From NCBI RefSeq assembly GCF_014874095.1, contig NZ_JADBEB010000001.1, positions 1,984,001 to 2,048,000 of the forward strand: a DNA stretch of 64,000 nucleotides, in the 5' to 3' direction. The DNA is from Plantactinospora soyae (GTDB lineage: Bacteria; Actinomycetota; Actinomycetes; Mycobacteriales; Micromonosporaceae). Positions within the stretch are counted from its first letter, which is position 1. Every line of letters starts with the position of its first letter. Under the pieces are notes generated by a model that made no database searches, was not told the DNA's origin, and worked only from the letters and a program-made list of their open reading frames with translations. A program made the position numbers and the translations under genes. Shown piece after piece: positions 983-37,989 of this stretch.

Positions 983-3900
983 TCAGGCCGGGCTGGCGGC
1001 CGTCGTGCCCTCGTCGTCCCTATCGGTCGGCCTGCCGTCACCGTCCGGCGAGGTGCCGATCAGGCGGTCCACGGCGGTGTTCGTCAGGGTGGCGCTGATG
1101 GCGCTGCCGGCGGCGATGCCCCAGCCCACCGGCCCGAGCGGTGTGCACCCGAAGAACTGGCTCAGCCCCGGTGTCTGGATCACCGCGGCGAGCAGGGCCA
1201 CGGAGGCGGCGGTCGACACCAGCACGCTCGGACTCAACCCGCCGTCGATCAGGGTCTGGCCGAGCTGCGTTCCGACGAGGGAGGCCAGCGCGACCGTACC
1301 GGCCCGGCGTCGGGTCCCGGTGTAGCGGGCGAGCGTCCAACCGGTGGTCGCACCGAGGGTTGTGGTGCCGGCCCGCAGCGCGATCTCGCGGGTGAGGGTG
1401 GCCCCGAGCGAGGTCTCCGGTCCCTCGGTGAGCAGGCTGTCCATGCTGTCCTCGCGGGGGGCCCGGATCGCGATGGCCATCGCCGGTGCGAGGTCGGTGA
1501 GCAGGTTGACCAGCAGCATCTGTCGACCGTTCAACGCGGATCGGCCGGTCAGCGCGGCGGTGAGGACGCTGAACGCGATTTCGCCGAGGTTGCCGCCGAC
1601 CAGGATGCTGAGCGCGTGCCGGACCGAGGACCACATCGCCCGCCCCTCGATCAGGGTCGCGATGATCGTTTCGAGCCGGTCGTCGGTGACCACGAGGTCG
1701 GCGGCGGCCCGAGCGGCCGGGGTACCCCGTTGGCCGAGCGCGATGCCGACGTCGGCCAGCCGGATCGCGGGGGCGTCGTTGGCGCCGTCCCCGGTCATCG
1801 CCACCGTACGGCCGCACTTCTGCAACGCCCGGATGATCCGTACCTTGTGTGTCGGCGTACACCGGGCGACCACGTCGGTCCGGGCCAGCCGCTCGGCGAG
1901 CGCGTCGTCGTCGAGTTGGTCGAGTTCGGTCGCGGTGACGACGCGTTGCGCCACACCGTCGGTGCTGATGATCGCCGCGATCGCCTCGGCGGTGGCCGGA
2001 TGGTCCCCGGTGATCATGATGGTGTGCACGCCGGCCTGCCGGATCCGGCGTACCGCCGGTGCCGCGCTCGCCCGGACCCCGTCGGACAGGGCCAGGAAGC
2101 CGACGAACGTCAGGTCCCCGATGTCGTCCTCGCCGACCGTGTCGGTGGGCAGCTCCCGTTCGGCCACCGCCAACACCCGCTGGCCCGCGCCCGCGTGCCG
2201 GTCCAGGGTCTCCTGTAGTGCCCGGCCGCCGGCCTCGTCCAACTCCCGGTCACCGCCCGGGTCGCGTCGTCGGGTACACCGGGGCAGGATCGTCTCGGGT
2301 GCGCCCTTGACGCTGAGCAGGAACTTTCCCCGGTACCGGCCGACGGTGGCGTGGTAGCCCCGGGACGCCTCGAACGGCAGCGCGTCGGCCTGGTGCCAGG
2401 CGTGGGTCCGGGTTCCGGTGTCCACCCCGGCCTGCCGGGCACCCGTCAGCACCGCCCGGTCGGTCTGCTGGCTGACCTCCTCGGGCCGGTCGGCCGCCGG
2501 GGTGGCCCGGAGCGCCGCCGCGAGGATCGGCCGCAGTCCCTTGTCCAGCGCGTCGAGTTCGGCGTACCGCTCGCCGTCGCCGAGGCCGGCCAGCATCAGC
2601 CGACCCTCGGTCAGGGTGCCGGTCTTGTCGAAGCAGAGCACGTCGACCCGGCCGAGCGCCTCGATGGTGCGCGGGTTCCGGACCAGCGCACCGTGTTCGG
2701 CCAGTCGGCGGGCGGCGGCCAACTGGGCGGCGCTGACCAGGAACGGCAACCCCTCCGGTACGGACGCGACGGCGAGGTTGGCAGCGGTACCGGCCGACTC
2801 GACGAGCGGTACGCCGCGCAGCAGGCCGGCTCCGGCGACCGCCACGGCGGAACTGGCGGCCAGTGGAATGGACATCCTGGTGAGCCGGCCGAGTCGGGCC
2901 TCGACCCCGCTGGTGGGGGTGGCCTCGCCGGCCAGCGCCATGCCCCGGCCGATCTCGGTGTCCACACCGGTCGCCACCACCACCGCGACGCCTCGTCCGG
3001 CGGCCACGGTCGTACCCTCGTAGAGCATCGACCGTCGGTCGGCCACCGCGGCGGCCACCACCGGATGGCTGGTCTTCGCCACCGGCAGCGACTCCCCGGT
3101 CACCGAGGACTCGTCGGTCTCCAGGCCGACCGCCTCGATCACCCGGCAGTCCGCCGGGATCGCGTCGCCCGGTTCGAACGCCACGACGTCCCCCGGCACG
3201 AGTTCGTCGGCCGCGACCACCCTCTCGGTTCCGTCCCGACGGACCCGTGCCGTCACCGCCGACCGGGACAGCAGCTCGGCGAGCGAACGTTCGGTGGAGA
3301 CGCGGTGTCCGGCGCCGATCAGCGCGGTCAGCCCGATCACCCCGCCGACGAGTGCGGCGTCGGCCACCGAACCCACTGCGGCGGAAAGGCCCGCGCCGGC
3401 CGCCAGCACCGGGGTGAGCGGGTTCGCCAGCTCCTCGACGAACGCCCGGGGCAGGTCGAGACCGTCGACGCCGCCACCCGCCGGACGTCGCCCACGCCGG
3501 TCGATCTTCTCGGTGGACAGGCCCGCCTGGTCGGTGTCGAGCCGGGCCAGCACGGTTTCGACCGGCATCAGGTGCCAGGGGGTCGGCGGCGCGGTGTGCG
3601 AGGTCCGTCGTTCGGGCAGCCGGCCGGCCCGCCAGACCCCGTGACCAAGGGCGAGTCCGGCGGCGGCGTTGACCGCCGCCATCGTCCGGGCGGGCAACTG
3701 GGCCGGCGGGGCGGTGAAGGCCGCCAACGCGCCCAGTCCGCTGCCGGCGGTGGCGAGCGCGATGCTCTGCCGGGCCACCGTCCGGGCCATTCCGGCGGCC
3801 TCGATCACCAGCGCCGGCACCGACAGGTCCGCACCGACCAGCAGGTGGGCTCCCCAGGGCGCCGGATCCTCGGGACGCCAGACGCCGAGCCCGCAGTCGG

Positions 3901-5500
3901 CGGCGGCAAGGGCACGCGGATCGCCGGAGACCAGGGCGACCATCGCACCCTCGGACTGCAACGACCGGATCGACCCGGCCAGCCGGGACCCACCCGGTAC
4001 GTGGCCGTCGGCGAAGTCGTACCGCTGGCTGTCCTCCTCCTCGCCCGCGACCAGTAGCCGCAGTCCGGCGCGGCGGGCCGCGGCCGGCAGCGCGTCGATT
4101 CCCGGGGCGGGCTCGGCGGCCACCCGGACCACCGCCGCGAGGGAGCCGTCCGTGGCCAGACCGAGCAGCGTGCCACCAGCGGAACGCAGCCGCTCGACCT
4201 CCTCGGTACCGGAGCCGTCGGACGCCGGCATCGCGTCGAGCGGTCCGAGGCGCCAGCTGTCCGAGTTCTGGACCTGGTCCGGGCGATCCGGATCGAACAG
4301 GCTGAAGGCCTGTACGGCGACCCGTTCGGCGTCGCTGCCCGGTAGTGGCACCAGGTCGGTGAGGACCCCCCGGGCGGACCGGAGAGCGGCGGCGTCCAGC
4401 ACCAGGACGTCGAGTCGTTCCAGTTCACGCAGGACGCCGCGGTCCATCGCGATCACTCCCCGGCGGGCGAGCAGCCAACCGAGCCGTGCGGCGTACCCCT
4501 CCCGGCCGGCGACGGCCGCGCTCGGCAGGCTGGCCAGGGCCAGTGCGGCGGCACGCTTGCGGCCGGCCAGAGAGAGCGTCGCGGCCCCGGCGATGGTGCC
4601 CGACTCCAGCACCCGGGCGAGGTACCGCTCGACCGGCCCGTCCGGCTTCCCCCGGGGACGCTCGTCCGGTGGTGGCGGTGCCGAGGCCCGCTCCGGCGTA
4701 CCGGCGAGGAGGGGTTCGGCTTCTTCCCAGGCGGCGAGTTGGGCACGCGCCTCGCCCCATTGCAGAACCCGCTGCGCGCCGTCGAGCAGGATGCCGGCCC
4801 AACCGCCGGTCAGTCCCTGGGCCAGCACCGCCGCCAGCGGCAGCACCGAGTCCGCCCGGTGGTCGCCGCGCAGCCCCCGGCCGGCCAGCGAGTGCAGCCT
4901 CGGATGCAGGTCCACCGCCCGGACGAAGCCGGCGAGTTCTCCCGGCGCCCGGGTGAACGGCAGGATCCGTACCGCCGCCGACAGGCCGAGGCCGAACGCG
5001 TCGGTGGCGATCCTGGTCATGGCGCTTCGGGTCCGTGGGCCCTCCTCCGGCGGATGCGGTTCCGGGCAGTCCGGGTCCGGTTCGAGACCGTCGGTACGCT
5101 CCACGGCGGCGATCGCCGCGACCAGTTCCCGCAGCCGGGGCTCGGGTGGGCCCACCGCCACCACCACCCGCCCGGAGGGCGCGTTGACCCGGGCCCACAG
5201 CACGCCGGGCATCCCGTCCAACGCCCGTTCGACCTGCGCGGCGAGTCGTTCACCGCCCGGCTGGGCGACCCCGTGCACCTCGATGTGGTGCCGGCCGGGG
5301 CGGGACCAGACAGCACGGCGCTTCAGCCCGGCGGCCTGCGCCGCCCGGAACACCACCGACTCGGCGCCCCGGGAGAACCCGGCGACGAGGTCCGGCACGG
5401 CGCCGGGCGAGACCGCGGCCGGCAGGTTGGGCAGGTGCAGCCGGGGCAGGTTGATGCCGGGCAGGTGTACCCGGGGAAGCCTGTGCCCCAGAGACGTCAT
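983..5500 (-). CDS. Giant P-type cation-transporting ATPase (CtpI-like)
   Basis: Membrane ATPase, 1505 aa from the ATG at 5500 (a GTG at 5536 would add 12 residues; neither has a clear ribosome site). Canonical P-type signatures are in the C-terminal half: TGES at about 801, the phosphorylation motif DKTGT with Asp958, an ITGDHPATA stretch, and TGDGANDAP from 1236. About 1500 residues is far longer than ordinary P-type ATPases (700-900 aa) but matches the mycobacterial CtpH/CtpI group. The N-terminal half contains an HMA-like region and a second phosphorylation-domain-like stretch (LDVLVLDAAALRSARG, Asp369) in which Lys-Thr-Gly-Thr is lost. The transported ion cannot be told from sequence; cation (Ca/Mg-like) transport is family inference. 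Confidence 0.9.
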   Translation of the reverse strand: MTSLGHRLPRVHLPGINLPRLHLPNLPAAVSPGAVPDLVAGFSRGAESVVFRAAQAAGLKRRAVWSRPGRHHIEVHGVAQPGGERLAAQVERALDGMPGVLWARVNAPSGRVVVAVGPPEPRLRELVAAIAAVERTDGLEPDPDCPEPHPPEEGPRTRSAMTRIATDAFGLGLSAAVRILPFTRAPGELAGFVRAVDLHPRLHSLAGRGLRGDHRADSVLPLAAVLAQGLTGGWAGILLDGAQRVLQWGEARAQLAAWEEAEPLLAGTPERASAPPPPDERPRGKPDGPVERYLARVLESGTIAGAATLSLAGRKRAAALALASLPSAAVAGREGYAARLGWLLARRGVIAMDRGVLRELERLDVLVLDAAALRSARGVLTDLVPLPGSDAERVAVQAFSLFDPDRPDQVQNSDSWRLGPLDAMPASDGSGTEEVERLRSAGGTLLGLATDGSLAAVVRVAAEPAPGIDALPAAARRAGLRLLVAGEEEDSQRYDFADGHVPGGSRLAGSIRSLQSEGAMVALVSGDPRALAAADCGLGVWRPEDPAPWGAHLLVGADLSVPALVIEAAGMARTVARQSIALATAGSGLGALAAFTAPPAQLPARTMAAVNAAAGLALGHGVWRAGRLPERRTSHTAPPTPWHLMPVETVLARLDTDQAGLSTEKIDRRGRRPAGGGVDGLDLPRAFVEELANPLTPVLAAGAGLSAAVGSVADAALVGGVIGLTALIGAGHRVSTERSLAELLSRSAVTARVRRDGTERVVAADELVPGDVVAFEPGDAIPADCRVIEAVGLETDESSVTGESLPVAKTSHPVVAAAVADRRSMLYEGTTVAAGRGVAVVVATGVDTEIGRGMALAGEATPTSGVEARLGRLTRMSIPLAASSAVAVAGAGLLRGVPLVESAGTAANLAVASVPEGLPFLVSAAQLAAARRLAEHGALVRNPRTIEALGRVDVLCFDKTGTLTEGRLMLAGLGDGERYAELDALDKGLRPILAAALRATPAADRPEEVSQQTDRAVLTGARQAGVDTGTRTHAWHQADALPFEASRGYHATVGRYRGKFLLSVKGAPETILPRCTRRRDPGGDRELDEAGGRALQETLDRHAGAGQRVLAVAERELPTDTVGEDDIGDLTFVGFLALSDGVRASAAPAVRRIRQAGVHTIMITGDHPATAEAIAAIISTDGVAQRVVTATELDQLDDDALAERLARTDVVARCTPTHKVRIIRALQKCGRTVAMTGDGANDAPAIRLADVGIALGQRGTPAARAAADLVVTDDRLETIIATLIEGRAMWSSVRHALSILVGGNLGEIAFSVLTAALTGRSALNGRQMLLVNLLTDLAPAMAIAIRAPREDSMDSLLTEGPETSLGATLTREIALRAGTTTLGATTGWTLARYTGTRRRAGTVALASLVGTQLGQTLIDGGLSPSVLVSTAASVALLAAVIQTPGLSQFFGCTPLGPVGWGIAAGSAISATLTNTAVDRLIGTSPDGDGRPTDRDDEGTTAASPA

Positions 5501-25876: not shown

Positions 25877-26109
25877 GGTTCCTGCCGTCCTCTGCTGCTC
25901 GGGCCGGGATGTCGGACGGGGACGTTGCCGCCTCGATCGGGTCGAGGGTCAAGTCAGCCGTGCCGTCCGATCGTCCGAGCCTCGCCGTGACAGGGCTGCC
26001 CAGACGCATGAAAGGAGGAGGCGGAGCGTCACTCGGGACCGGTACGGTGAGCGCCGGCAATCGGACGCCGACCACAGGGACATCCCGGTGTCGGACGGAG
26101 TGAAGAATC

Positions 26110-27903
26110 GTGGACCGGACCTTCCAGGTCGACCTGCGTGGCGTGGTCGACCTGCTCAGTCACCACCTCTACGGCAGTCCCCGGGTCTACGTCCGGGAGC
26201 TGTTGCAGAACGCGGCGGACGCGATCACCGCCCGCCGGGCCACCGAGCCAGCGGCCCCGGCCATGGTGCGGATCGAGCCGCCCGAGCTGACCGGGGACGG
26301 CACGCTGCGGGTGCACGACACCGGCATCGGGCTGACCGAACCCCAGGTACACGAACTGCTCGCCACCATCGGTCGCAGCTCGAAGCGGGACGAGCTGGGC
26401 TTCGCCCGGCACGAGTTCCTCGGCCAGTTCGGCATCGGCCTGCTCTCCTGCTTCCTGGTCGCCGACGAGGTCCGGGTGCGGACCCGACACGGGGACGAGC
26501 CCACCGTGGCGTGGACCGGGTACGCCGACGGCCGCTACCGGGTCGAGTTGGCCGCCGAGGGAGAGGCGCGGGCCGAGGTCGGTACGACGGTGACCCTGGT
26601 GCCGCGCCGGGACGCCGAACAGTGGTTCCTCGGCTCGACGGTGACGGAGCTGGCCGGTTTGTTCGGATCGCTGCTGCCGATCCGGGTCTTCGTCGGCGGG
26701 ATCGAGACCACCACCGGAGCGCCGCCCTGGTCGGCGTCCGCCGGCACCTCCCCCGCCGCCCGCCGGGACCGGCTCGTCCGGTACGCCCGCGAGGCGCTCG
26801 GCTTCACCCCGTTCGACGTCGTACCGCTGTCGGTGCCGGAGGCCGGGCTGACGGGTACGGCCTTCGTGCTCCCCGCACCGGTGAATCCGGCAGCCCGCGC
26901 CGGGCACCGCGTCTATCTGAAGCGGATGCTGCTCACCGAGGGCGCCGAGGGCCTGTTGCCGGACTGGGCGTTCTTCGCGCGCTGCGTCGTCGACTCCAGC
27001 GAGCTGCGGCCGACCGCCAGCCGGGAGGCGCTGTACGAGGACAACCTGTTGGAGAGCACCCGTGAGGCGCTCGGCGATCAGCTCCGGGGCTGGCTGGTCC
27101 GGCTGGCCGGCAGCGATCCCCAGCGGCTCGCCGACTTCCTCCAGGTGCATCACCTCGGGGTGAAGGCGCTGGCGCTGCACGACGACGAGATGCTCCGGCT
27201 GGTCGAGCGCTGGTGGCCGATGGAGACCAACACCGGGCAGACCACCCTGGCGGAGTTCCGCGAGCGGCACGGCCTGATCCGGTACGCGGCCACCATCGAC
27301 GAGTTCCGCCAACTCGCCGCGGTGGCGGCGGCGCAGGATCTGGCGGTGGTCAACGCCGGTTACACGTACGACGCCGAGATCATCGAGCGGCTGCCGTCGG
27401 TGGACCGGTCGGTGCTGGTCGAACGGCTGGAGCCGACCGATCTGACCACCCGGTTCGACATCCTCGATCCGGGTGTGGAGCTGGCCGTCCGACCGTTCCT
27501 GAGTACGGCACAGCGGGCCCTGGACCGGTTGGGCTGTGAGGTGGTGCTGCGGTCGTACGCCCCCGCGTCGTTGCCCGCCCTCTACCTGGTGAGCCGTTCG
27601 GCGGCCTTCCACGAGCAGTTGCAGTCGACCCGGGAGCGGGCCGACGAGATGTGGGCCGGGGTGCTCGACGCGCTCGCCGCGTCCGGCCCGCCGGAGCGCC
27701 CGCAACTGGTGCTCAACCACCGCAATCCGCTGGTCCGCCGGGTCACCGCGCTCGCCGATCCGGAGCTGGTCGGTCTCGCCGTGGAGGCGCTGTACGGGCA
27801 GGCGTTGCTGCTCGGCTACCACCCGATCCGACCGGCCGACGCCGCCCTGCTCAACAGTTCGTTCCTCGGCCTGCTCGGGCGGGCCGTGCCGGGACAGGAG
27901 TGA
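26110..27903 (+). CDS. HSP90-family (HtpG-like) ATPase
   Basis: A 597-aa HSP90 homologue. The GHKL ATPase domain has catalytic Glu30 and Mg-binding Asn34 (RELLQNAADA), the nucleotide loop DTGIG (70-74) and the lid-adjacent GQFGIG (105-110). The middle domain holds the ATP-contacting Arg305 in TASREAL, matching the conserved Arg of HSP90. The C-terminal part (about 330-597) is present, so it is near full length (HtpG is about 620-630 aa). It ends VPGQE, without MEEVD. GTG 26110 is preceded by GGAG. A 1019-aa TPR gene starts 5 bp after its stop, so the two are one operon and probably one chaperone system. Confidence 0.9.
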   Translation: MDRTFQVDLRGVVDLLSHHLYGSPRVYVRELLQNAADAITARRATEPAAPAMVRIEPPELTGDGTLRVHDTGIGLTEPQVHELLATIGRSSKRDELGFARHEFLGQFGIGLLSCFLVADEVRVRTRHGDEPTVAWTGYADGRYRVELAAEGEARAEVGTTVTLVPRRDAEQWFLGSTVTELAGLFGSLLPIRVFVGGIETTTGAPPWSASAGTSPAARRDRLVRYAREALGFTPFDVVPLSVPEAGLTGTAFVLPAPVNPAARAGHRVYLKRMLLTEGAEGLLPDWAFFARCVVDSSELRPTASREALYEDNLLESTREALGDQLRGWLVRLAGSDPQRLADFLQVHHLGVKALALHDDEMLRLVERWWPMETNTGQTTLAEFRERHGLIRYAATIDEFRQLAAVAAAQDLAVVNAGYTYDAEIIERLPSVDRSVLVERLEPTDLTTRFDILDPGVELAVRPFLSTAQRALDRLGCEVVLRSYAPASLPALYLVSRSAAFHEQLQSTRERADEMWAGVLDALAASGPPERPQLVLNHRNPLVRRVTALADPELVGLAVEALYGQALLLGYHPIRPADAALLNSSFLGLLGRAVPGQE

Positions 27904-27908
27904 GCACA

Positions 27909-30900
27909 ATGGAGAACGTCAACAGGGACCTCTGGCGGGCGCTGCACCGGATCACCGAGATGCCGTACGGCGCCGGTCAGATCGCCGCCGTCGAGCAGCT
28001 GATCCGGCAGGCGGACGCGGACGGCGACGACGAGATCGCCTTCGTGGCCCGGGTGGTCGGCACCGACAGTTACGTCTTCGGCGGGGAGCCGGGCCGGTCG
28101 TTCGTCACCTTCTCGTGGTGTCTGGCCGAGTTCGACGGGCCGTCGAAGCCGTACCACCAGCGGAACGAGTACAACCTGCTCCGGCAGTTCAAATACATGA
28201 TCAACAGCTTGTTGAACTTTCCCGACGTTCCGCTGGACCGGACGTACGCGGTGCTGGACGACATGGAGCGGCGCTACCGGGACGGTGGCCACAGCCTCCA
28301 GGCCGTCTACAAGCGACGGCACCGGGTGGCCCGGCACGTGGGGGCGCCGGACGAGGCGGAGGAGTGGTACAGGCGCTGGCTCACCGCCCCACGGAACCAG
28401 CTCTCCGACTGCGCCGGCTGCGATCCGACCTCCCAGATCGACTACCTCGCGTCGAGCGGGCGTCACGAGGAGGCGGTCGCGCTGGCGGAACCGGTGCTTA
28501 CCGGTCGGCTCGGCTGTGCGAAGCAACCGCAGGCGGTCCTCACCGCCCTGCTGCGGCCGTACCTGCACAGCGGGCGACGGGCGGAGGCGCGGGACGCGCA
28601 CCTGCGGGCGTACCGCCGGCATCGGAGCAACGTCGCCGACCTGCGGGACATCGGTGAACACCTGACGTTCTGCGCGTTGACCGGGAACGAGCCGCGCGGC
28701 CTGGAGCTGCTGGAACGGCACCTGGATTGGCTGGACCGTGCCCCGTCCCCGGGCGCCGCGATGGAGTTCGCCGTCGGCGCGGCACTTCTGCTCCGCCGGC
28801 TGGACTCAGCCGGGCACGGCACGTTGACCGTGCACCGGTCGGCGTACGGGGAGCGGTCGGCGACCGAGGTGCCGGTGACGGTACTGGCCGAGGAACTGAC
28901 CACGACGGCGCACGCGTTGGCCGCTCGGTTCGATGCCCGGAACGGCACCTCCACCAAGTCGAACTGGGTCGGCGAACACCTGGCGCTGGAGCCGATCGGC
29001 CCGTACCTGCCGCTGTCCGCCACCGCCGCACGCCAGGACGTCGGCCCGGTCGGGTCCACCGGCACGTCCGGTACGTCAGCCGGCGTCGATCCCCCGCCGC
29101 CCCCGCCCCCGGCAGAGACCCCGCCGCCAACCGCGCCGCCAACCCCGCCGCCAACCGCGCCGCCAACCGCGACCCGAACCGCGACCCGAACCGACCCGGG
29201 GGCGACCTCGCCCGATCTGGCGGCCGACGTACCACCGATCCGGCTGCTCGAACTGATCGAGGAACGGTGGCTGCGTCACCGACAGGACGATCACCTGGCG
29301 ACGGCGCTGCGGACCTTCGACGAACGGTTCGCGGACGTGTCCCTGGACGCGTCGGTGCTGGCCCGGCGGGCCGAGTTGCGGGCCCTGCAACGGCACACGG
29401 TCGACGATGTCACCGGCGGGGTGACGGCGAACCGGGAGGCGATCGCGCTGCACCGCCAGGTTCCGGACCCGGTCCGGGAGCAGATCGTGGCGGGACGCCT
29501 GGGCGTGCTGCTGGCGCTCGCCGACGATCCGGCCGAGGGACTGTCACTGGCCCAGGGGTCGGCCGACTACCTGGCCGAGCACGGTGACGGGGTTGCCCGG
29601 GCCGGCGGATACGACCGGCTCTCGATCGTCCTGTTCAACCAGGAGCGGACGACCGAGGCGCTGGAGGCGGTGGACCGGGCGGCGGCCGAGGCTGCCGGTG
29701 TCGGGGACCGGTACCTGCTGGCCCGGATCGCGCTGCGCCGGACCCGTTTCCTGGATCTGCTCGGCCGACGGGTCGAGGCCAACGAGGCCGTACGGCAGGC
29801 CCGGGATCTGCTCCTGGACCTCGGCGGCCCGCCGGACTACCTCGCCACGGCCTGCCTGCGGTACGCGGACTCGGTCGAGGAGCCGGCCGAGGCGGTTCCG
29901 GCCTGGGACGAGGCGGTACGGACGGCGACGGACGAAACGGTGGTGCAGGCCCGCAGTCTTCGGGCCCGGGCACTGCTGCTGGTCGACCGTCCGGCCGAGG
30001 CGGTCGACGACCTCGTGGAGGCGGTCGCCCTCAGTGTGCGGTGGGGGATCGCGGACGGCGCGGCCCACCTGCGGTGGAAGCTGGCGGAGGCGTACCAGCG
30101 GGCCGGCATGTTGACGGAGGCGGCCGAGGCGGCCGAAGAGGCGATCGGTGAACTGAAGCGGCTCGGCCGGCAGGCCGACGCGGACTGCTGCCGGCACCTG
30201 CTCGCCGCCGTATACGCCGCGCTGCACGAGTACGACCTGGCCGTGGCGTTGCTCGACGAACTCGCCGCCAACCTGGACAGCCCGGACAATCTCGTCTGGC
30301 GGGGACGGGTCCTGGAGGAAGCCGGTGACCTGCTCTACCGGCAGGACCGGGACAGTCTCGCGGCGCAGCGGTTCGCGGCGGCGGCGACGGCGTACCGGCT
30401 CGCGGAGCGGGGCATCGACGAGTTGCGCACCTGGCGCCGGGAGGTCTCCGCCCAGATCTGGGCCCGTGATCCCGACGCGGCGTTGGCGGCGCTCGGCCGT
30501 GCGGACCGGGTGGCGGCGACCCTGGATCCACCGGATGTGGCGTCGCCGACCCCGACCGCCGACCCGGCGGTGTCGCTCGGCGAGCCGGCGGAGGACGCCG
30601 TTTCGGCCGCTGCCACGCTGCGCTGGGAGCGGGCGCTGCTGGCGGAGGCGGCGGCCCGCGCTCTGCTCGCCGTCGGTCGCCCGGAGGAGGCGTTGGGCCG
30701 GCTGCCCGGTGTCGCCGACGAACTCCGGTCGTTGGAGGCGCTCGGCGAGGCGCAGCACGTCGACCTGCTGACCGGCGAGCTGCTGGTCCGGTCGGATCGG
30801 CCGGCGGAAGCGGAGCCGCTGCTGCGGACGACGCTCGGTGTCGTGACCGAGCGCCCCGACCTGGCCTCCCGGGGTGCGTTGTGGCTTGCGGAGGCGTTGA

Positions 30901-30968
30901 CCGCGCTCGGCCGGTACGAGGAAGCCACCGCCCTGCGCGCCGAGTACGCCCTCGACCCCGACCAGTGA
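27909..30968 (+). CDS. Large TPR-repeat partner of the HSP90-like protein
   Basis: A 1019-aa protein from ATG 27909, immediately after the HSP90-like gene. Residues 1-390 are helical with an N-terminal region (YVFGGEPGRSFVTFSWCLAEF...YAVLDDMERRYRDGG) and TPR-like units. A Pro/Thr-rich linker of repeated PPTAPPT units covers about residues 393-435. The C-terminal half (about 440-1019) is a long TPR-like superhelix (AGGYDRLSIVLFNQERTTEALEAVDRAA, WKLAEAYQRAGMLTEAAEAAEEAI, AEPLLRTTLGVVTERPDLASRGALWLAEALTALGRYEEA). No signal or TM segment, so it should be cytoplasmic. Co-chaperone function with the HSP90 partner is inferred from operon position and TPR content. Confidence 0.85.
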   Translation: MENVNRDLWRALHRITEMPYGAGQIAAVEQLIRQADADGDDEIAFVARVVGTDSYVFGGEPGRSFVTFSWCLAEFDGPSKPYHQRNEYNLLRQFKYMINSLLNFPDVPLDRTYAVLDDMERRYRDGGHSLQAVYKRRHRVARHVGAPDEAEEWYRRWLTAPRNQLSDCAGCDPTSQIDYLASSGRHEEAVALAEPVLTGRLGCAKQPQAVLTALLRPYLHSGRRAEARDAHLRAYRRHRSNVADLRDIGEHLTFCALTGNEPRGLELLERHLDWLDRAPSPGAAMEFAVGAALLLRRLDSAGHGTLTVHRSAYGERSATEVPVTVLAEELTTTAHALAARFDARNGTSTKSNWVGEHLALEPIGPYLPLSATAARQDVGPVGSTGTSGTSAGVDPPPPPPPAETPPPTAPPTPPPTAPPTATRTATRTDPGATSPDLAADVPPIRLLELIEERWLRHRQDDHLATALRTFDERFADVSLDASVLARRAELRALQRHTVDDVTGGVTANREAIALHRQVPDPVREQIVAGRLGVLLALADDPAEGLSLAQGSADYLAEHGDGVARAGGYDRLSIVLFNQERTTEALEAVDRAAAEAAGVGDRYLLARIALRRTRFLDLLGRRVEANEAVRQARDLLLDLGGPPDYLATACLRYADSVEEPAEAVPAWDEAVRTATDETVVQARSLRARALLLVDRPAEAVDDLVEAVALSVRWGIADGAAHLRWKLAEAYQRAGMLTEAAEAAEEAIGELKRLGRQADADCCRHLLAAVYAALHEYDLAVALLDELAANLDSPDNLVWRGRVLEEAGDLLYRQDRDSLAAQRFAAAATAYRLAERGIDELRTWRREVSAQIWARDPDAALAALGRADRVAATLDPPDVASPTPTADPAVSLGEPAEDAVSAAATLRWERALLAEAAARALLAVGRPEEALGRLPGVADELRSLEALGEAQHVDLLTGELLVRSDRPAEAEPLLRTTLGVVTERPDLASRGALWLAEALTALGRYEEATALRAEYALDPDQ
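29085..29210. repeat. Short repeats encoding the Pro/Thr linker
   Basis: Repeated ccgccaacc-type units and then cgacccgaac units encode a PP(T/A)-rich linker between the two TPR halves. The low complexity is confined to this part of the gene. Confidence 0.75.
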
Positions 30969-31208: not shown

Positions 31209-31838
31209 GTGACGGTGGAGGAGCAGGTGATGGGGGCGGAGGCCGGCGTGCCCGCCAGCGGCGTACGGCGGCGGCGGTCCCGCCGCGACGAGATCCTGGA
31301 GATCGCGGTCGGCCTGTTCGCGGCCCGCGGCTACCACGGGGTGTCGATGGACGACATCGGGTCGGCGGCGGGGGTGACCGGGCCAGCGCTCTACCACCAC
31401 TTTGCCGGCAAGGAGGCGATGCTCGCCGCCGCGCTGATGCCGGTGAGCGACGGGCTGCTGGCCGGCGGTCGGCAGCGGGTCGCCGATCATCCGGAGCACG
31501 CCCGCGCGGCACTGGAGTCATTGATCGATTTCCATGTCGAGTTCGCGCTCGCCAACCCGGCGGTCATCGCGTTGCACCTGCACGAGCTGGACCGACTGCC
31601 CGAGGAGCCGCGTCGGCAGATCCGTCGGCTGCAACGGCTCTACGTCGAGGAGTGGGTGGGGGTGCTGACCGCGCTGCATCCGAAGCTGTCGGCCGGCGAG
31701 GCCCGGGTGCTGGCACACGCCGCTTTCGGTCTGATGAACTCCACGCCGTTCCTCGGCGGTGAGGTCGACCGAGAGCGCCGGGCCGCGCTGCTGAGGGCCG
31801 CGACCCTCGCCGCCCTGCTGGCCGATCCGGACGACTGA
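31209..31838 (+). CDS. TetR-family regulator of the isovalerate/leucine degradation genes
   Basis: A 209-aa TetR protein with an N-terminal HTH (residues about 25-70, RDEILEIAVGLFAARGYHGVSMDDIGSAAGVTGPALYHHFAGKEAML) and a helical ligand-binding domain. It lies upstream of the biotin carboxylase, HMG-CoA lyase, carboxyltransferase and acyl-CoA dehydrogenase genes, so it is the likely repressor of this catabolic set; acyl-CoA ligands are inferred from family and context. GTG 31209 has TAGGCT about six bases upstream; ATG 31230, with GGAGGAG before it, is an alternative start. Its 3' end is part of a 37-bp tandem triplication. Confidence 0.87.
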   Translation: MTVEEQVMGAEAGVPASGVRRRRSRRDEILEIAVGLFAARGYHGVSMDDIGSAAGVTGPALYHHFAGKEAMLAAALMPVSDGLLAGGRQRVADHPEHARAALESLIDFHVEFALANPAVIALHLHELDRLPEEPRRQIRRLQRLYVEEWVGVLTALHPKLSAGEARVLAHAAFGLMNSTPFLGGEVDRERRAALLRAATLAALLADPDD

Positions 31839-31937
31839 GCCCGGCGGACGACTGAGCGCCGATGCGCCGATGCGGACGGTTGAGCCCGGCGGACGACTGA
31901 GCGCCGATCCGGACGATTGAGCCCGGCGGACGCCGAT
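31821..31937. repeat. Three 37-bp imperfect tandem units at the tetR 3' end
   Basis: Units begin at 31821, 31866 and 31903. The first contains the last tetR codons and the TGA; later copies repeat them (gccgatSSggacgRYtgagcccggcggacg). The repeats end 29 bp before the biotin carboxylase start and seem to duplicate the end of the coding sequence. Confidence 0.85.
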
Positions 31938-31966
31938 ACCACACCTGGAGAGGGACGCAACAGAAC

Positions 31967-33313
31967 ATGATCGAGTCGCTGCTCGTCGCAAACCGTGGCG
32001 AGATCGCTCGCCGGATCATCCGTACCGCCCGGCGGCTCGGTGTACGGACGATCGCCGTCTACTCCGAGGCAGATGCCGACCTGCCGTTCGTGCGTGAGGC
32101 CGACGAGGCGGTCTGTGTCGGACCGGCCAACCCGGCGCAGAGCTACCGCAACCCGGAGGCGATCCTCGCCGCGGCCAAGTCGACCAACGCCAGGGCGATC
32201 CATCCCGGGTACGGCTTCCTGTCGGAGAACGCGGACTTCGCCCGTACCGTCGAGGCGAACGGCCTGATCTGGGTCGGGCCCGGCGCCGACGCGATCACCG
32301 CGATGGGCGACAAGATCAACGCGCGTAACCTGATGGCGGACGCCGGGGTACCGGTCGCGCCCGGCACCACCGACCCGGCCGCCGACGTGGACGCGGCGCT
32401 GGCCGCCGCCGGGACGATCGGCTTCCCGGTCATGGTCAAGGCCGCCGCCGGTGGCGGCGGAATGGGCATGGCGGTCGCCGCCGACGAGGCCGGCCTGCGG
32501 ACCGAGTACGACAAGGTACGCGCCTTCGCCGAGCGGATGTTCGGGGACGGCTCGGTGCTGATCGAGCGCTACTTTCCCCGGGTACGGCACGTCGAGGTGC
32601 AGATCCTCGGCCTGGCCGACGGCCGGGTGGTGGCGCTGGGCGAGCGGGAGTGCTCGGTGCAGCGGCGCAACCAGAAACTGGTCGAGGAGTCGCCGTCACC
32701 GGCCGTGTCGGCAGAACTCCGGAAGCGGCTGTTGGCCGCCGCGGTCCGGGCCGGCGAGGCGGTCGGCTACCGCAACGCGGGCACCGTGGAGTGCCTGCTC
32801 GATCCGGCCACGGGGGAATTCTTCTTCCTGGAGATGAACACCCGGCTCCAGGTCGAGCACCCGGTGACGGAGTTGGTCTACGGCGTGGACCTGGTGGAGG
32901 AACAGCTCCGGGTGGCGGCCGGACTGGCGCCCGGCTTCGACCCGGACGCGTTGACGGCGCGCGGGCACGCCATCGAGCTGCGGATCAACGCCGAGGACCC
33001 GAAGCGGTTCCTGCCGGGACCGGGCGCGGTGACCGCGTGGACCGAGCCGACCGGGGAGGGGGTCCGGGTCGATTCCGGGTACGCCCTCGGCACCACCGTC
33101 ACGCCGCACTACGACTCACTGATGGCCAAACTCATCGTGTACGGCGCGGACCGGTCCGAGGCGATCGCAAGGGCCCGGACGGCGGTGGCCGGATTCGAGA
33201 TCGCCGGTCCGAAGTGCAACCTGCCGTTCTTCTCCGAGCTGTTCGACAACTCCGAGTTCCTCGGCGGCGACTACGACACCGGTATCGTCGGCCGGATGCG
33301 GGCGAAGAAGTGA
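31967..33313 (+). CDS. Acyl-CoA (methylcrotonyl-CoA-type) biotin carboxylase subunit
   Basis: A 448-aa biotin carboxylase: N-terminal BC domain (LLVANRGEIARRIIRTARRLG), ATP-grasp with the Gly-rich loop AAAGGGGMGM (about residues 157-168), catalytic EMNTRLQVEHPVTE (about 287-300) and a C-terminal BC domain ending at 448. The biotin-carboxyl-carrier domain with its AMKM lysine, carried by AccA-type subunits of about 650 aa, is missing, and no small BCCP gene follows. It therefore needs a carrier from elsewhere. With AccD and the acyl-CoA dehydrogenase this fits methylcrotonyl-CoA carboxylation in leucine breakdown. GTGA overlap couples it to HMG-CoA lyase. Confidence 0.92.
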   Translation: MIESLLVANRGEIARRIIRTARRLGVRTIAVYSEADADLPFVREADEAVCVGPANPAQSYRNPEAILAAAKSTNARAIHPGYGFLSENADFARTVEANGLIWVGPGADAITAMGDKINARNLMADAGVPVAPGTTDPAADVDAALAAAGTIGFPVMVKAAAGGGGMGMAVAADEAGLRTEYDKVRAFAERMFGDGSVLIERYFPRVRHVEVQILGLADGRVVALGERECSVQRRNQKLVEESPSPAVSAELRKRLLAAAVRAGEAVGYRNAGTVECLLDPATGEFFFLEMNTRLQVEHPVTELVYGVDLVEEQLRVAAGLAPGFDPDALTARGHAIELRINAEDPKRFLPGPGAVTAWTEPTGEGVRVDSGYALGTTVTPHYDSLMAKLIVYGADRSEAIARARTAVAGFEIAGPKCNLPFFSELFDNSEFLGGDYDTGIVGRMRAKK

Positions 33314-34233
33314 CCGGCCGGGCGGAGCTGCCGAGCGTGGTGTCGATCCGTGAGGTCGGTCCGCGCGACGGTCTCCAGAACGAGGATCCGGTACCCACCG
33401 ACGGCAAGGTACGGCTGCTCGACGCGCTGTCCCGGACCGGCGTACGCCGGATCGAGGCGGTCTCCTTCGTCCATCCGAAGGCGATCCCGCAGATGGCCGA
33501 CGCGGACGAGGTCTGGGCGCGGGCGTCCCGGGCGTCCGGGGTCCGCTACTCGGCGCTGGTGCCGAACTCCCGCGGTGCGCAGCGGGCTCTCGCGGCCGGG
33601 TTCACCGAGATCGAGGTGGTGGTGTCGGCCAGCGACACCCACAACCGGCGCAACGTCAACCGGTCCACGGCCGAGTCGCTGGACGACATCGCCGGGCTGA
33701 TCGACCTGCTGCACTCCGCCGGGGCGACCGCCGAGGTGATCGTGGCGACCAGCTTCGGCTGCCCGTACGAGGGGGACGTCGATCCGGCCCGGGTCGCCGG
33801 CATCGTGGACCGGGTGGTGGCGGACGGGGCGGACCGGGTGGCGTTCGGCGACACCACCGGGATGGCGACCCCGCGTCGGGTCCGGGAACTGGTCACCGCC
33901 GTTCGGGACCGGCAGCCCGACATCCCGGTCCTGCTGCACTTCCACAACACCCGGGGTACCGCGCTGGCGAACCTGCTCACCGCCCTCGAACTCGGGATCA
34001 CCGAGTACGACGCCAGCGTCGGCGGCCTGGGCGGCTGCCCGTACGCCCCGGGGGCGAGCGGGAACGTGGCGACCGAGGAGGTCGTGCACATGCTGCACGA
34101 CATGGGCATCGAGACCGGGATCGACCTCGACGCGCTGCTGGAGGCGGCGGCGCTGGCCGAGGAGCTGGTCGGCCGGGAGCTGCCCTCCGGAGTGCTCCGC
34201 GCCGGCCCCCGCAGCCGCCTGACGGCGGTGTAA
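33310..34233 (+). CDS. Hydroxymethylglutaryl-CoA lyase
   Basis: A 307-aa TIM-barrel lyase that splits HMG-CoA into acetoacetate and acetyl-CoA, the last step of leucine degradation. Hallmarks: VGPRDGLQNE at the N-terminus, metal-binding HFHNTRGTALANL, and GLGGCPYAPGASGNVATEE with the catalytic Cys. GTG 33310 overlaps the biotin carboxylase stop (GTGA), so I place the start there rather than further upstream. Its stop codon lies inside a palindromic GGAAGGGCCCCTTC element. The snapalysin gene converges on it from the right. Confidence 0.94.
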   Translation: MTGRAELPSVVSIREVGPRDGLQNEDPVPTDGKVRLLDALSRTGVRRIEAVSFVHPKAIPQMADADEVWARASRASGVRYSALVPNSRGAQRALAAGFTEIEVVVSASDTHNRRNVNRSTAESLDDIAGLIDLLHSAGATAEVIVATSFGCPYEGDVDPARVAGIVDRVVADGADRVAFGDTTGMATPRRVRELVTAVRDRQPDIPVLLHFHNTRGTALANLLTALELGITEYDASVGGLGGCPYAPGASGNVATEEVVHMLHDMGIETGIDLDALLEAAALAEELVGRELPSGVLRAGPRSRLTAV

Positions 34234-34281
34234 GGAAGGGCCCCTTCTTATCGCTTTCTGTATAGGAAGGGCCCCCTCTTA
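34232..34281. repeat. Two GGAAGGGCCCCTTC-type palindromic elements
   Basis: aaggaagggccccttctt (34232-34249) overlaps the lyase stop codon, and aggaagggccccctctta (34264-34281) follows 14 bases later as a second, imperfect copy. The element can fold as a hairpin with an A/T-rich flank. Similar palindromes are common in Micromonospora intergenic regions, from memory; here they probably act as terminators. Confidence 0.6.
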
Positions 34282-34304
34282 ACTCCCACCACTGCGTACG
34301 ACGA

Positions 34305-34330
34305 AGGGGCCGGCGGGTTCGCCGGCCCCT
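34305..34330. terminator. Hairpin terminator between lyase and snapalysin genes
   Basis: A perfect 11-bp stem (aggggccggcg with cgccggcccct) and a GGTT loop. It lies 72 bp after the lyase stop and 45 bp beyond the snapalysin stop. Confidence 0.7.
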
Positions 34331-34338
34331 CCGTCGCT

Positions 34339-34369
34339 GGCGCCCGCCCCGGGGGCAGGGGCGGGCGCC
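34339..34369 (-). terminator. GC-rich hairpin terminator of snapalysin gene
   Basis: A perfect 12-bp stem (ggcgcccgcccc with ggggcgggcgcc) and a 7-nt loop, starting 6 bp after the snapalysin stop on the minus strand. It is GC-only with no U tract. Confidence 0.7.
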
Positions 34370-34374
34370 CCGGC

Positions 34375-34947
34375 TCAGCCGATCGGGGCGAGCACGGCCG
34401 GCCAGCTGTCCGGGAACACCTGGCTTCCGGTGCCACGGGCGTCCTCACCACTGACCCGGGTACCGGCGAAGAGGTTGGTCACCCGGCTCGCCTCCGCACT
34501 GCTCGGGTTCGGGTTGGTGCAGCTGGTGCCGGCGCTGCCACCGGACATCAGCAGGGAGCAGTTCCCGTTGTAGTTGTCCGGCAGCCCGAGGATGTGGCCG
34601 ATCTCGTGGCTCATGATCCGCAGTGGGCTGTACTGCGCGGCCTGCCGGGTGTCGATGTAGACCCGGCCGTTGCCGAGACTGGTCCGTTGGGCGTACGAGC
34701 CACCGCCGGTGATCGAGTAGATCCGGAGGTTGTTGCCGCAGTTCGCCGAGAGCGTCAGGTTCGACGTGGCGTTGTTCCAGATCGAGGCGGCCTGGTTGGC
34801 GACGCCGGCGAAACTGCCCGCCTGGCTGGTGTTGTAGCAGATGGTCATGGCGGCGGACGCGGGCGACGGGTTGGCGATGGTGACGCCCAGGGTCGCACCT
34901 GCCGTCGCGACGAACGCGACGACGAGCCGGCTGATCCGTGAGGTCAT
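34375..34947 (-). CDS. Snapalysin-family secreted zinc metalloprotease (peptidase M7)
   Basis: A 190-aa secreted protease. Residues 1-32 form a Sec signal peptide (RLVVAFVATAGATLGV core, cleavage after ASA). The metzincin-like zinc site is H114-E115-x2-H118-x5-D124 (HEIGHILGLPD), which in snapalysin uses the Asp as the third ligand. Four Cys in the mature part suggest disulfides. Snapalysins are small neutral extracellular proteases of Streptomyces and relatives. The gene lies on the opposite strand inside a leucine catabolic gene set, which it interrupts. An AT-rich stretch with a GACAATTGTC palindrome sits upstream and is probably its promoter/operator. No LysR activator is adjacent. Confidence 0.92.
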   Translation of the reverse strand: MTSRISRLVVAFVATAGATLGVTIANPSPASAAMTICYNTSQAGSFAGVANQAASIWNNATSNLTLSANCGNNLRIYSITGGGSYAQRTSLGNGRVYIDTRQAAQYSPLRIMSHEIGHILGLPDNYNGNCSLLMSGGSAGTSCTNPNPSSAEASRVTNLFAGTRVSGEDARGTGSQVFPDSWPAVLAPIG

Positions 34948-34986
34948 GACTCACACTCCGATCCGGTTTTAAGGGGGTGCCAGCAG

Positions 34987-35030
34987 CATAATTATCGACA
35001 ATTGTCAATTTCAACATCCTTTCCACATAC
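34987..35030 (-). promoter_or_regulatory. AT-rich promoter/operator of snapalysin gene
   Basis: A strongly AT-rich patch in very GC-rich DNA contains the perfect palindrome GACAATTGTC (34997-35006). On the minus strand it includes TTGACA. It lies 40-80 bp upstream of the protease start; the exact -10 is not certain. Confidence 0.4.
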
Positions 35031-35144
35031 GTGGTCGCTCGGTATGACGGTTGCTCGGACACGCGGAGCCTGGCCGTTGCGCCGGACGATCCAGCGCGAG
35101 GTCGACAACCGGGGTGGCCCGAAGTTGCCCGGATGCCGTAACCT

Positions 35145-35154
35145 AACGATCGTT
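35145..35154. promoter_or_regulatory. TetR-type operator (aacgatcgtt) before accD-like gene
   Basis: A perfect 10-bp palindrome AACGATCGTT is flanked by acct on the left and caggt on the right, 37 bp upstream of the carboxyltransferase GTG. AACGNNCGTT cores are typical of TetR-family operators. The TetR at 31209 is the obvious candidate. Confidence 0.5.
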
Positions 35155-35190
35155 CAGGTCAAGTCAGGCAAGGCGGGCTAGGGGGTCGGC

Positions 35191-36747
35191 GTGGCACTCG
35201 ACGGAGCGGCACCCGGACAACACGGCGGGGCGGAGCTGGAACAGCTCGGCAAGCGGGTCCGGTCCGGCGGCGCGGAGAAGTACCACGCGGCCAACGCCGC
35301 CAAGGGCAAACTGTTCGCCCGCGAGCGCATCGCGATGCTGGTCGACGAGGGCTCCTTCGTCGAGGACGGCATGTACGCGAACGCGCTCGCCGACGGCCTT
35401 CCCGCCGACGGCGTGATCACCGGTTCGGCCCGCATCGACGGCCGGCAGGTCTGCCTGATGGCCAACGACTCGACCGTCAAGGCCGGCAGTTGGGGCGCGC
35501 GTACGGTCGAGAAGATCATTCGGATCATCGAGCGGGCGTACGCCGCCGGACAGCCGATGGTCTACCTGGTGGACTCGGCCGGCGCCCGGATCACCGACCA
35601 GGTGGACCTCTTCCCCGGCCGGCGCGGCGCCGGAAAGATCTTCTGGAACCAGGTCCGCGCCTCCGGCTCGATACCGCAGGTCTGCGCGCTGTTCGGGCCG
35701 AGCGCGGCCGGCGGCGCGTACATTCCGGCGTTCTGCGACGTGGTGGCGATGGTGGACGGCAACGCCAGCATGTACCTCGGCTCCGACCGGATGGTCGAGA
35801 TGGTCACCGGGGAGAAGACCACACTGGAGGAGATGGGCGGGGCCCGGGTGCACTGCGCCGAGTCCGGGGTCGGGCACTTCCTCTGCAAGACCGAGGCCGA
35901 CGCCCTCGACGTGGTCCGCCGCTACCTGTCGTACCTGCCGGCGAACTGGACGCAGCCGCCACCGGTCGCGCCGTCCGCCGCCGCGCCGGGCAACGTCGAC
36001 CTGGCCGCGCTGGTGCCGGCGAGCGAGCGGCAGGCCTTCGACATGCGCCGGTACGTCAAGGGCCTGCTCGACGCCGACTCGTTCCTGGAGATCCAGGCGC
36101 TCTGGGCGAAGGAGCTGACCATCGGCTTCGGCCGGTTGAACGGCGAGGTCGTCGGGGTGGTCGCGAACAACTCGATGTTCAAGGGCGGGGTGCTCTTCGT
36201 CGACTCGGCCGACAAGGCGACCCGGTTCGTCCAGCTCTGCGACGCGTTCAACGTGCCGCTGCTGTTCCTCTCCGACGTCCCCGGGTTCATGGTCGGTACG
36301 GCGGTGGAGAAGCAGGGCATCATCCGGCACGGCGCCAAGATGATCACGGCGATCTCCGAGGCGACCGTACCCAAGATCTGTGTGGTGGTCCGCAAGGCGT
36401 ACGGCGCCGGCCTCTACGCGATGGCCGGCCCCGGCTTCGAGCCGGACGCCACGATCGCGCTGCCCACCGCGAAGATCGCGGTGATGGGTGCCGAGGCGGC
36501 GGTGAACGCGGTCTACGCGAACAAGATCGCGGCGATCGCGGACCCGGACGAGCGGGCCGCCTTCGTCGCGGAGCGGCGTGCCGCCTACGAGCAGGACATC
36601 GACATCGTCCGGCTGGCAAGCGAACTGGTCGTCGACGCGATCGTCGAACCGGGTGACCTACGGCCGGAGCTGATCCAGCGGTTCGACGCCGCCCGGGGCA
36701 AGGACCGGCAGTTCTCCCGGCGCCGGCACGGCGTCACGCCCGTTTAA
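35191..36747 (+). CDS. Acyl-CoA carboxylase carboxyltransferase (beta) subunit
   Basis: A 518-aa protein with two crotonase-fold carboxyltransferase halves (about residues 40-270 and 280-500). Conserved features are the N-terminal LFARERIAMLVDEGSF, the oxyanion region FGPSAAGGAYIPAF, and the C-terminal SDVPGFMVGTAVEKQGIIRHGAK and RKAYGAGLYAMAG. It transfers CO2 from carboxybiotin to an acyl-CoA; 3-methylcrotonyl-CoA is inferred from context. GTG 35191 is weakly supported by AGGGGG. It is separated from its carboxylase partner by the snapalysin gene and has its own TetR-type operator. Confidence 0.93.
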   Translation: MALDGAAPGQHGGAELEQLGKRVRSGGAEKYHAANAAKGKLFARERIAMLVDEGSFVEDGMYANALADGLPADGVITGSARIDGRQVCLMANDSTVKAGSWGARTVEKIIRIIERAYAAGQPMVYLVDSAGARITDQVDLFPGRRGAGKIFWNQVRASGSIPQVCALFGPSAAGGAYIPAFCDVVAMVDGNASMYLGSDRMVEMVTGEKTTLEEMGGARVHCAESGVGHFLCKTEADALDVVRRYLSYLPANWTQPPPVAPSAAAPGNVDLAALVPASERQAFDMRRYVKGLLDADSFLEIQALWAKELTIGFGRLNGEVVGVVANNSMFKGGVLFVDSADKATRFVQLCDAFNVPLLFLSDVPGFMVGTAVEKQGIIRHGAKMITAISEATVPKICVVVRKAYGAGLYAMAGPGFEPDATIALPTAKIAVMGAEAAVNAVYANKIAAIADPDERAAFVAERRAAYEQDIDIVRLASELVVDAIVEPGDLRPELIQRFDAARGKDRQFSRRRHGVTPV

Positions 36748-36840
36748 CGATCAGGACCCGCTGCGGGCTCTGGAGCAGCAACCTCCCGCCGGCCGCCACG
36801 AGCGCTCCCGGTGGACCGACCGATCCGTATGGAGGAACCC

Positions 36841-37989
36841 ATGGACTTCCGGCTCACCGACGAGTACGAGGCGCTGCGATCCAGTGTGCGGGAGTTCGCC
36901 CGCGAGGTGGTCGCCCCGGTCATCGCCGACCACTACGAGCAGCACACCTTCCCGTACGAGATCGTCGCGCAGATGGGCAAGATGGGGCTGTTCGGCCTGC
37001 CGTTCCCGGAGGAGCACGGCGGAATGGGCGGGGACTACTTCGCGCTCTGCCTCGCGCTGGAGGAACTGGCCCGGATCGACTCCAGTGTCGCGATCACCCT
37101 GGAGGCGGCCGTCTCGCTCGGCGCGATGCCGATCTACCGGTTCGGCACCGACGAGCAGCGGGCCCGGTGGCTGCCGAAGCTGCTCAGTGGCGAGGCACTG
37201 GCCGGCTTCGGCCTGACCGAGCCGGGCACCGGTTCGGACGCCGGCGGTACGGCGACCCGGGCGGTCCTGGACGGCGACGAGTGGGTGATCAACGGTTCGA
37301 AGGCGTTCATCACCAACTCCGGCACCGACATCACGGCGCTGGTCACCGTGACCGCGGTGACCGGGGTGAACGCCGACGGATCCAAGGAGCTGTCGAGCAT
37401 CATCGTCCCGTCCGGCACTCCGGGCTTCACCGTCGCGCCGGGGTACTCCAAGGTGGGCTGGTGCGCCTCCGACACGCACGAGCTGACCTTCGACGACTGC
37501 CGGGTGCCGGCGGAGAACCTGCTCGGCCAGCGCGGCCGGGGCTTCGCCCAGTTCCTGCGGATCCTCGACGAGGGACGGATCGCCATCGCCGCCCTGTCGG
37601 TCGGGCTCGCCCAGGGCTGCGTCGACGAGTCGATCCGGTACGCGAAGGACCGACGCGCCTTCGGCCAGCCGATCGGCAACTTCCAGGCGATCCAGTTCAA
37701 GATCGCTGACATGGAGCGGCGGGCGTACACCTCGCGGCTGGCGTACTACGACGCGGCGGCGCGGATGCTGGCCGGCGAGGACTTCAAGCGGCAGGCGGCG
37801 ATCGCCAAGCTGCACTCCAGCGAGTGCGCGGTGGACAACGCCCGGGAGGCGACCCAGATCCACGGCGGCTACGGCTTCATGAACGAGTTCCCGGTGGGCC
37901 GGTTCTGGCGCGACTCGAAGATCCTGGAGATCGGTGAGGGCACCTCCGAGGTACAGCGGATGATCATCGCCCGGGACCTGGGCCTCTGA
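36841..37989 (+). CDS. Acyl-CoA dehydrogenase (isovaleryl-CoA type by context)
   Basis: A 382-aa FAD-dependent acyl-CoA dehydrogenase. N-terminal helical domain (DFRLTDEYEALRSSVREFAREVV), central ACAD signatures (GFGLTEPGTGSD, INGSKAFITNSG), and the C-terminal HGGYGFMNEFPVGRFWRDSKILEIGEGTSEVQR with Glu in the GEGTSE motif. GGAGGA lies four bases before ATG 36841. Placed with AccD, biotin carboxylase and HMG-CoA lyase, it most likely oxidises isovaleryl-CoA to 3-methylcrotonyl-CoA. A methylglutaconyl-CoA hydratase gene is not in this window. Confidence 0.92.
   Translation: MDFRLTDEYEALRSSVREFAREVVAPVIADHYEQHTFPYEIVAQMGKMGLFGLPFPEEHGGMGGDYFALCLALEELARIDSSVAITLEAAVSLGAMPIYRFGTDEQRARWLPKLLSGEALAGFGLTEPGTGSDAGGTATRAVLDGDEWVINGSKAFITNSGTDITALVTVTAVTGVNADGSKELSSIIVPSGTPGFTVAPGYSKVGWCASDTHELTFDDCRVPAENLLGQRGRGFAQFLRILDEGRIAIAALSVGLAQGCVDESIRYAKDRRAFGQPIGNFQAIQFKIADMERRAYTSRLAYYDAAARMLAGEDFKRQAAIAKLHSSECAVDNAREATQIHGGYGFMNEFPVGRFWRDSKILEIGEGTSEVQRMIIARDLGL

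Follow-up and report, generated by a model that had tools for sequence, protein, structure and literature searches.

Eukaryotic HSP90 works with TPR co-chaperones, among them Hop, FKBP51/52 and PP5. For HtpG of Escherichia coli, no co-chaperones had been identified as of 2014 according to the available part of PMC4428384, and the HtpG of Mycobacterium tuberculosis is described in the accessible text of PMC10269695 as directly associating with DnaJ2. Streptomyces coelicolor carries two HTPG copies that belong to different groups in a scheme of HTPG groups A, B and C, as far as the available part of that paper goes (Chen, Zhong and Monteiro 2006, PMC1525184). From its length and the two-copy pattern, our guess is that the S. 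coelicolor HTPG2 (615 aa) is probably a member of the NCBIfam family NF010683, with group C its likely slot. This HSP90 family is already named, and the finding of such a second HSP90 with a helical-repeat gene beside it almost throughout the related bacteria compared suggests a bacterial chaperone with a built-in helper.

We analysed a 64,000-nucleotide stretch of the Plantactinospora soyae genome (the window), in which an HSP90 gene is followed 5 bp later, on the same strand, by a gene for a 1019-aa TPR protein; a first-pass annotation had reported this arrangement and the window sequence confirms it (Table 1). The same annotation described the HSP90 as 'HtpG-type', which holds for the fold and fails for the family. 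The protein has the N-M-C fold of HSP90 and retains the ATPase residues named in that annotation (Glu30, Asn34, DTGIG, GQFGIG and Arg305), and in the AlphaFold model (pLDDT 87) residues 4 to 597 align to solved HSP90s. It is a member of NF010683 and not an HtpG: it scores 824.5 bits over residues 2–594 against NF010683, passing the curated cut-off of 455, and 148.7 bits against the HtpG model NF003555, under the cut-off of 371. The host genome encodes one NF010683 HSP90 and a second, ordinary htpG, for which the first-pass annotation had proposed to look, 4.3 Mb away. Among the control genomes of the profile search, Deinobacterium chartae and Corynebacterium glutamicum also contain an NF010683 protein above the cut-off.

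Table 1 Features of the HSP90–TPR locus (window coordinates, except for the ordinary htpG)
Feature	Position	Strand	Remark
Conserved block CCGGTACGGTGAGCGCC, candidate promoter element	26039..26055	+	Best conserved stretch in a MAFFT alignment of 8 close-relative upstream regions; function putative
HSP90 family protein gene (NF010683/PRK14083)	26110..27903	+	Product 597 aa, N-M-C fold
GGACAGGAG, probable ribosome-binding site for the TPR gene	27892..27900	+	Within the end of the HSP90 gene; judged from sequence
Partner protein gene	27909..30968	+	1019 aa, two helical-repeat parts
TPR_N, residues 1-375	27909..29033	+	Constant domain beside NF010683 HSP90; AlphaFold pLDDT mostly >90
C168-x2-C171, near-invariant	28410..28421	+	Partner alignments; possible metal site with C203
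C203, third near-invariant cysteine	28515..28517	+	Partner alignments
Disordered hinge, residues 377-431	29037..29201	+	pLDDT <50; proline-rich run begins at residue 395
Variable C-terminal TPR superhelix, residues 440-1019	29226..30965	+	AlphaFold; low identity among relatives
Ordinary htpG of the host genome	C1:6304172-6306049		4.3 Mb from the window HSP90

In the AlphaFold model of the partner, two well-predicted helical-repeat parts are linked by a disordered segment. Pfam TPR matches in the window protein fall in the second part only, and it has no NCBIfam match. Sequence comparison identifies the first ~375 residues (TPR_N) as the constant part of the partner, with the remainder varying: mean pairwise identity among 49 aligned proteins is 40% in TPR_N versus 25% in the C-terminal part. 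The libraries searched hold no dedicated family for TPR_N, bar one uncharacterised PHROG, and one Listeria TPR_N copy barely passes the generic TPR_8 model (26.1 bits against a cut-off of 25.7). The TPR_N profile matches no PDB sequence, the whole partner gave a single, chance-level match to PDB sequences (in its C part), and large TPR proteins dominate the results of a fold search with the whole partner. Across 127 pairs the partner exceeds 800 aa in 98, carries a YbjN domain in place of the long C part in six and is at most 400 aa long in eight. Four of these eight short partners are truncated at contig ends (L100, L133, L143 and L171), one is divided between a TPR_N frame and a YbjN frame (L066), and three consist of TPR_N alone (L108, Listeria L177 and Paenibacillus L178).

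The proposal of a dedicated HSP90–TPR pair is supported by its conservation as neighbours in two phyla. A TPR_N gene lies downstream of HSP90 in all of the best 80 of 289 confirmed GTDB loci, all actinobacterial by title (70/70 where the HSP90 ORF was found by motif, 10/10 where it was found by position). The ORF caller missed the HSP90 ORF itself in L138 and L144. In L080 and L121 the partner is split into two frames right after an intact HSP90, through decay or sequencing error; in L121 the first of these frames directly follows HSP90. From the host-family search we picked 40 regions, 20 with high-scoring and 20 with lower-scoring matches, and a TPR_N-type gene adjoins HSP90 in 36 of them (35 downstream), the other four being divergent HSP90s. 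The 150 host-family genomes contain 139 HSP90 places over the NF010683 cut-off, in 117 genomes, and among the matches listed TPR_N is adjacent at 126 of these places (125 downstream, one upstream). Of the 13 others, five were judged contig breaks (G005, G025, G072, G089 and G138), five have their partner side beyond the matches listed (G033, G039, G071, G123 and G128), and three are divergent HSP90s with a remote TPR_N relative, which is adjacent in two (G066 and G147) and three genes away in G004. An Actinomycetota sample of 396 genomes yielded NF010683 HSP90 in 12 (14 places) and TPR_N in 13 (17 places); by hand comparison TPR_N adjoins 13 of the 14 HSP90 places, and four of the 17 TPR_N places are without HSP90. 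By these counts, the pair is common in the host family and patchy elsewhere. As a control, we searched 18 kb at each of five ordinary htpG loci of the host family, whose proteins all score above the NCBIfam cut-off for HtpG and below the one for NF010683, and found TPR_N at none.

The two genes are closely spaced. The gap was measured in 125 pairs, and leaving out the one with its partner upstream (L068), 118 of the 124 downstream partners start within 30 bp of the HSP90 gene; 85 overlap or abut it (gap of zero or less), and in 62 the gap is exactly −4, a 4-base overlap. No HSP90–TPR_N fusion was found among 3358 ORFs. Elements of the HAIR/CIRCE type, the operators of the HspR/HrcA heat-shock regulon, were found in none of 59 upstream regions and nowhere in the window; their absence is weak evidence on a stress role because the ordinary htpG locus (L003) shows none either.

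The surroundings of the pair change while the pair stays together, with contexts that include TetR/biotin carboxylase, FtsK, RecG and Listeria fri. In the window, positions 31209-37989 hold genes for TetR, biotin carboxylase, an HMGL-like protein, an M7 peptidase, a carboxyltransferase and an acyl-CoA dehydrogenase, and together these resemble a cluster for leucine/isovalerate degradation. Other genomes have the pair in different surroundings, and for that reason we rejected a general link to these catabolic genes. Positions 983-5500 of the window encode a P-type ATPase of 1505 aa whose long N-terminal part has no Pfam match. Several genomes carry two HSP90–TPR pairs at separate sites (L040 with L063; L080, with its broken partner, and L083), and in one locus (L101:3061-8373) a single HSP90 is followed by two consecutive TPR_N genes of 964 and 751 aa.

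HSP90 and TPR_N are also inherited together. Over 127 pairs (125 actinobacterial and two from Bacillota), the protein distances of the two correlate with a Mantel r of 0.92, a value reached by 0/2000 permutations. The HSP90 tree has 64 splits with support of at least 0.95; the TPR_N tree reproduces 54 of these and contradicts three. With support of at least 0.7, 23 of 102 are contradicted. The same nearest neighbour was found for both genes in 73 of the 127 pairs, a count inflated by genomes that are present twice via different collections (L060 and L111, for example). Neighbourhood by itself is no proof of interaction, and the two genes could have separate functions and simply share an ordinary operon; however, the pair has persisted in two phyla and in several genomic contexts, and its trees are congruent, so that we consider such an operon very improbable.

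The Bacillota pairs came from a plasmid collection in which some large replicons are included. In Listeria monocytogenes (L177:5980-10607) HSP90 is followed by two tandem TPR_N genes and then an SMI1/KNR4 gene, and in Paenibacillus cellulosilyticus by a 353-aa TPR_N with a 4-base overlap. The two HSP90s score 799.4 and 714.7 bits, over the NF010683 cut-off; searched in a file of 16 proteins, the partners match TPR_N with E-values of 1e-60 to 4e-65. From gene order and numbering, with fri beside lmo0942, we take lmo0941 to be a Listeria TPR_N; the accessible part of PMC6901971 calls this protein hypothetical and reports signs of selection on it. We also considered a phage origin of the pair and rejected it. 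A viral contig collection gave two short HSP90 matches per scan, at 31–36% identity, and the matches listed from a phage collection (10 of 32 records) include one with both halves, on the unverified 6.6-kb scaffold MT837560. In two 'Listeria phage' assemblies, pieces of HSP90 and TPR_N lie on separate short unannotated records and are perhaps host DNA. Two uncharacterised viral-library families, PHROG 32952 and 34905, match HSP90 and TPR_N and may stem from bacterial contigs assigned to viruses in error.

Eight residues of TPR_N (K95, G145, C168, C171, C203, P207, D342 and R344) are identical in nine of nine aligned sequences from the two phyla. Across the 127 partners they are retained in 122 (K95), 123 (G145), 124 (C168), 124 (C171), 122 (C203), 124 (P207), 125 (D342) and 124 (R344), and the departing partners include L068, L095, L096, L121 and L146. 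The three cysteines are identical in all 49 long partners. In the AlphaFold model C168 and C171 sit in the loop that precedes helix 172-182 and C203 in the loop that follows helix 186-197, a helix order that should put all three at one end of a single helical hairpin and makes a metal site plausible. Such conservation could also mean that the pair is a signalling or sensory switch, in which the cysteines sense metal or redox state and control another process. YbjN, which is fused or adjacent to the partner in FtsK-context loci, would then be a further module. Yet the metal is itself putative, the function of YbjN is poorly known, and across the contexts listed above the partner is the sole gene that stays beside HSP90; we therefore regard a switch as quite unlikely.

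TPR_N also occurs apart from HSP90. Among the matches listed in the host family, 24 of 150 TPR_N places have no NF010683 HSP90 beside them, a number that includes G138 and probably G089 as contig-break artefacts. One of the 24 is in the host genome itself, which has a YbjN gene and a TPR_N–YbjN gene in an FtsK context (L090:7128-9285; host C1:about 4001100-4003300), with a 115-bp gap where relatives carry HSP90. A third TPR_N paralogue of 779 aa (L091:7188-9527), which falls below the 150 places listed, lies beside ligA (NAD-dependent DNA ligase) and an ADP-ribosylglycohydrolase gene with no HSP90. In Actinomyces oris (L180:4262-8979) genes for a YbjN, a YbjN-like and a 1011-aa TPR_N protein stand in a row, and the 12.9-kb region examined has no annotated HSP90. 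Occurrence without HSP90 suggests that TPR_N may have a second role of its own outside the pair.

These solitary copies bear on another explanation, in which the TPR protein is an obligate client that acts elsewhere, and this hard-to-fold alpha-solenoid has the HSP90 as its private folding chaperone. One HSP90 gene per partner gene would suit it, as would the 85 overlapping or abutting frames and roles of TPR_N outside the pair. However, TPR_N proteins persist without such an HSP90 nearby and so can probably fold without it, and the domain that tracks HSP90 is the constant one, while the rest varies. We judge the client explanation unlikely, although it deserves some weight.

Some divergent HSP90s have other neighbours. 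At the three divergent HSP90s over the cut-off, the remote TPR_N relative lies 31 bp (L071) and 61 bp (L093) downstream and, in L070, three genes downstream; a search of a small file gave these relatives full-sequence E-values of 5e-10 to 5e-12. In G473 (L089) the neighbour of HSP90 is a different TPR protein of 297 aa. A divergent HSP90-like protein is followed by a 784-aa protein in L073:7902-12130 and a 783-aa protein in L094. Neither neighbour gives a TPR_N model signal, that of L073 also has no Pfam match, and they are possibly a different partner family.

A role in defence, suggested in the first-pass annotation, did not hold up and was dropped. An anti-phage or stress island would fit the patchy distribution outside the host family (12/396 genomes of the Actinomycetota sample) and the weak PADLOC matches of the HSP90 ATPase domain to TmtA and a restriction enzyme model. 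However, these matches cover ~95-125 residues, within the ATPase domain alone, and the TPR protein has none. A search with ten additional proteins, including seven neighbours in the window, yielded a single weak match, of the NUDIX neighbour to a defence candidate; the neighbours examined are not defence-like, and 117 of the 150 host-family genomes have an HSP90 that passes the cut-off. We give this explanation almost no weight.

We favour, with a probability of roughly 0.6, a dedicated HSP90–adaptor pair in which TPR_N would dock on HSP90 and the variable part would choose clients; binding, ATPase control and client selection are all inferred. The second, non-HtpG HSP90 of this two-gene module would cycle on ATP. 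None of the 127 NF010683-type HSP90s has an EEVD tail in its last 15 residues (the window protein ends VPGQE), so docking would have to use another surface, in agreement with the earlier suggestion that any binding must take a non-EEVD route. The constant TPR_N would dock there and probably adjust the HSP90 cycle; constancy of this domain with variation in the rest is what one would expect if the domain docks on HSP90 and the client modules can be exchanged. The variable C-terminal part, here a 580-residue TPR superhelix and elsewhere a YbjN domain, a shorter part or nothing, would select or hold clients, and the partner would thereby act as a dedicated co-chaperone or adaptor. More tentatively, and at slightly under even odds, these proteins may form an HSP90 lineage with its own co-chaperone family, common to Actinomycetota and Bacillota, in which TPR_N with a three-cysteine, probably metal-binding site presents interchangeable adaptors (TPR superhelix, YbjN), and which arose independently of the eukaryotic EEVD/clamp arrangement.

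The partner, which many actinomycetes and some Bacillota conserve and inherit along with HSP90, is a concrete candidate for a bacterial HSP90 co-chaperone, and the pair would make it directly testable whether bacteria evolved co-chaperones of their own. The minimal version of the partner, about 320-370 aa, should purify easily, and the natural partner variants provide a set of modules that may select clients. A literature text search, with subscription journals mostly outside its scope, found no published description of the HSP90–TPR_N pair, and the word tetratricopeptide is absent from the available text of the HTPG group A/B/C paper (PMC1525184). Compared with the known systems, the window HSP90 is a clear member of NF010683/PRK14083, whose model name, 'HSP90 family protein', is silent on a partner. 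It shares the N-M-C fold and catalytic residues with HtpG (NF003555), but HtpG loci are without TPR_N (0/5). The HtpGs of E. coli and M. tuberculosis are also chaperone-assisted bacterial HSP90s, but their partners, in the available parts of PMC4428384 and PMC10269695, are Hsp70/Hsp40 (DnaK/DnaJ). The likeness to eukaryotic HSP90 lies in the pairing of an HSP90 with a TPR partner; in contrast to the eukaryotic EEVD proteins, the 127 NF010683-type HSP90s compared do without that tail, and their partner is encoded next door.
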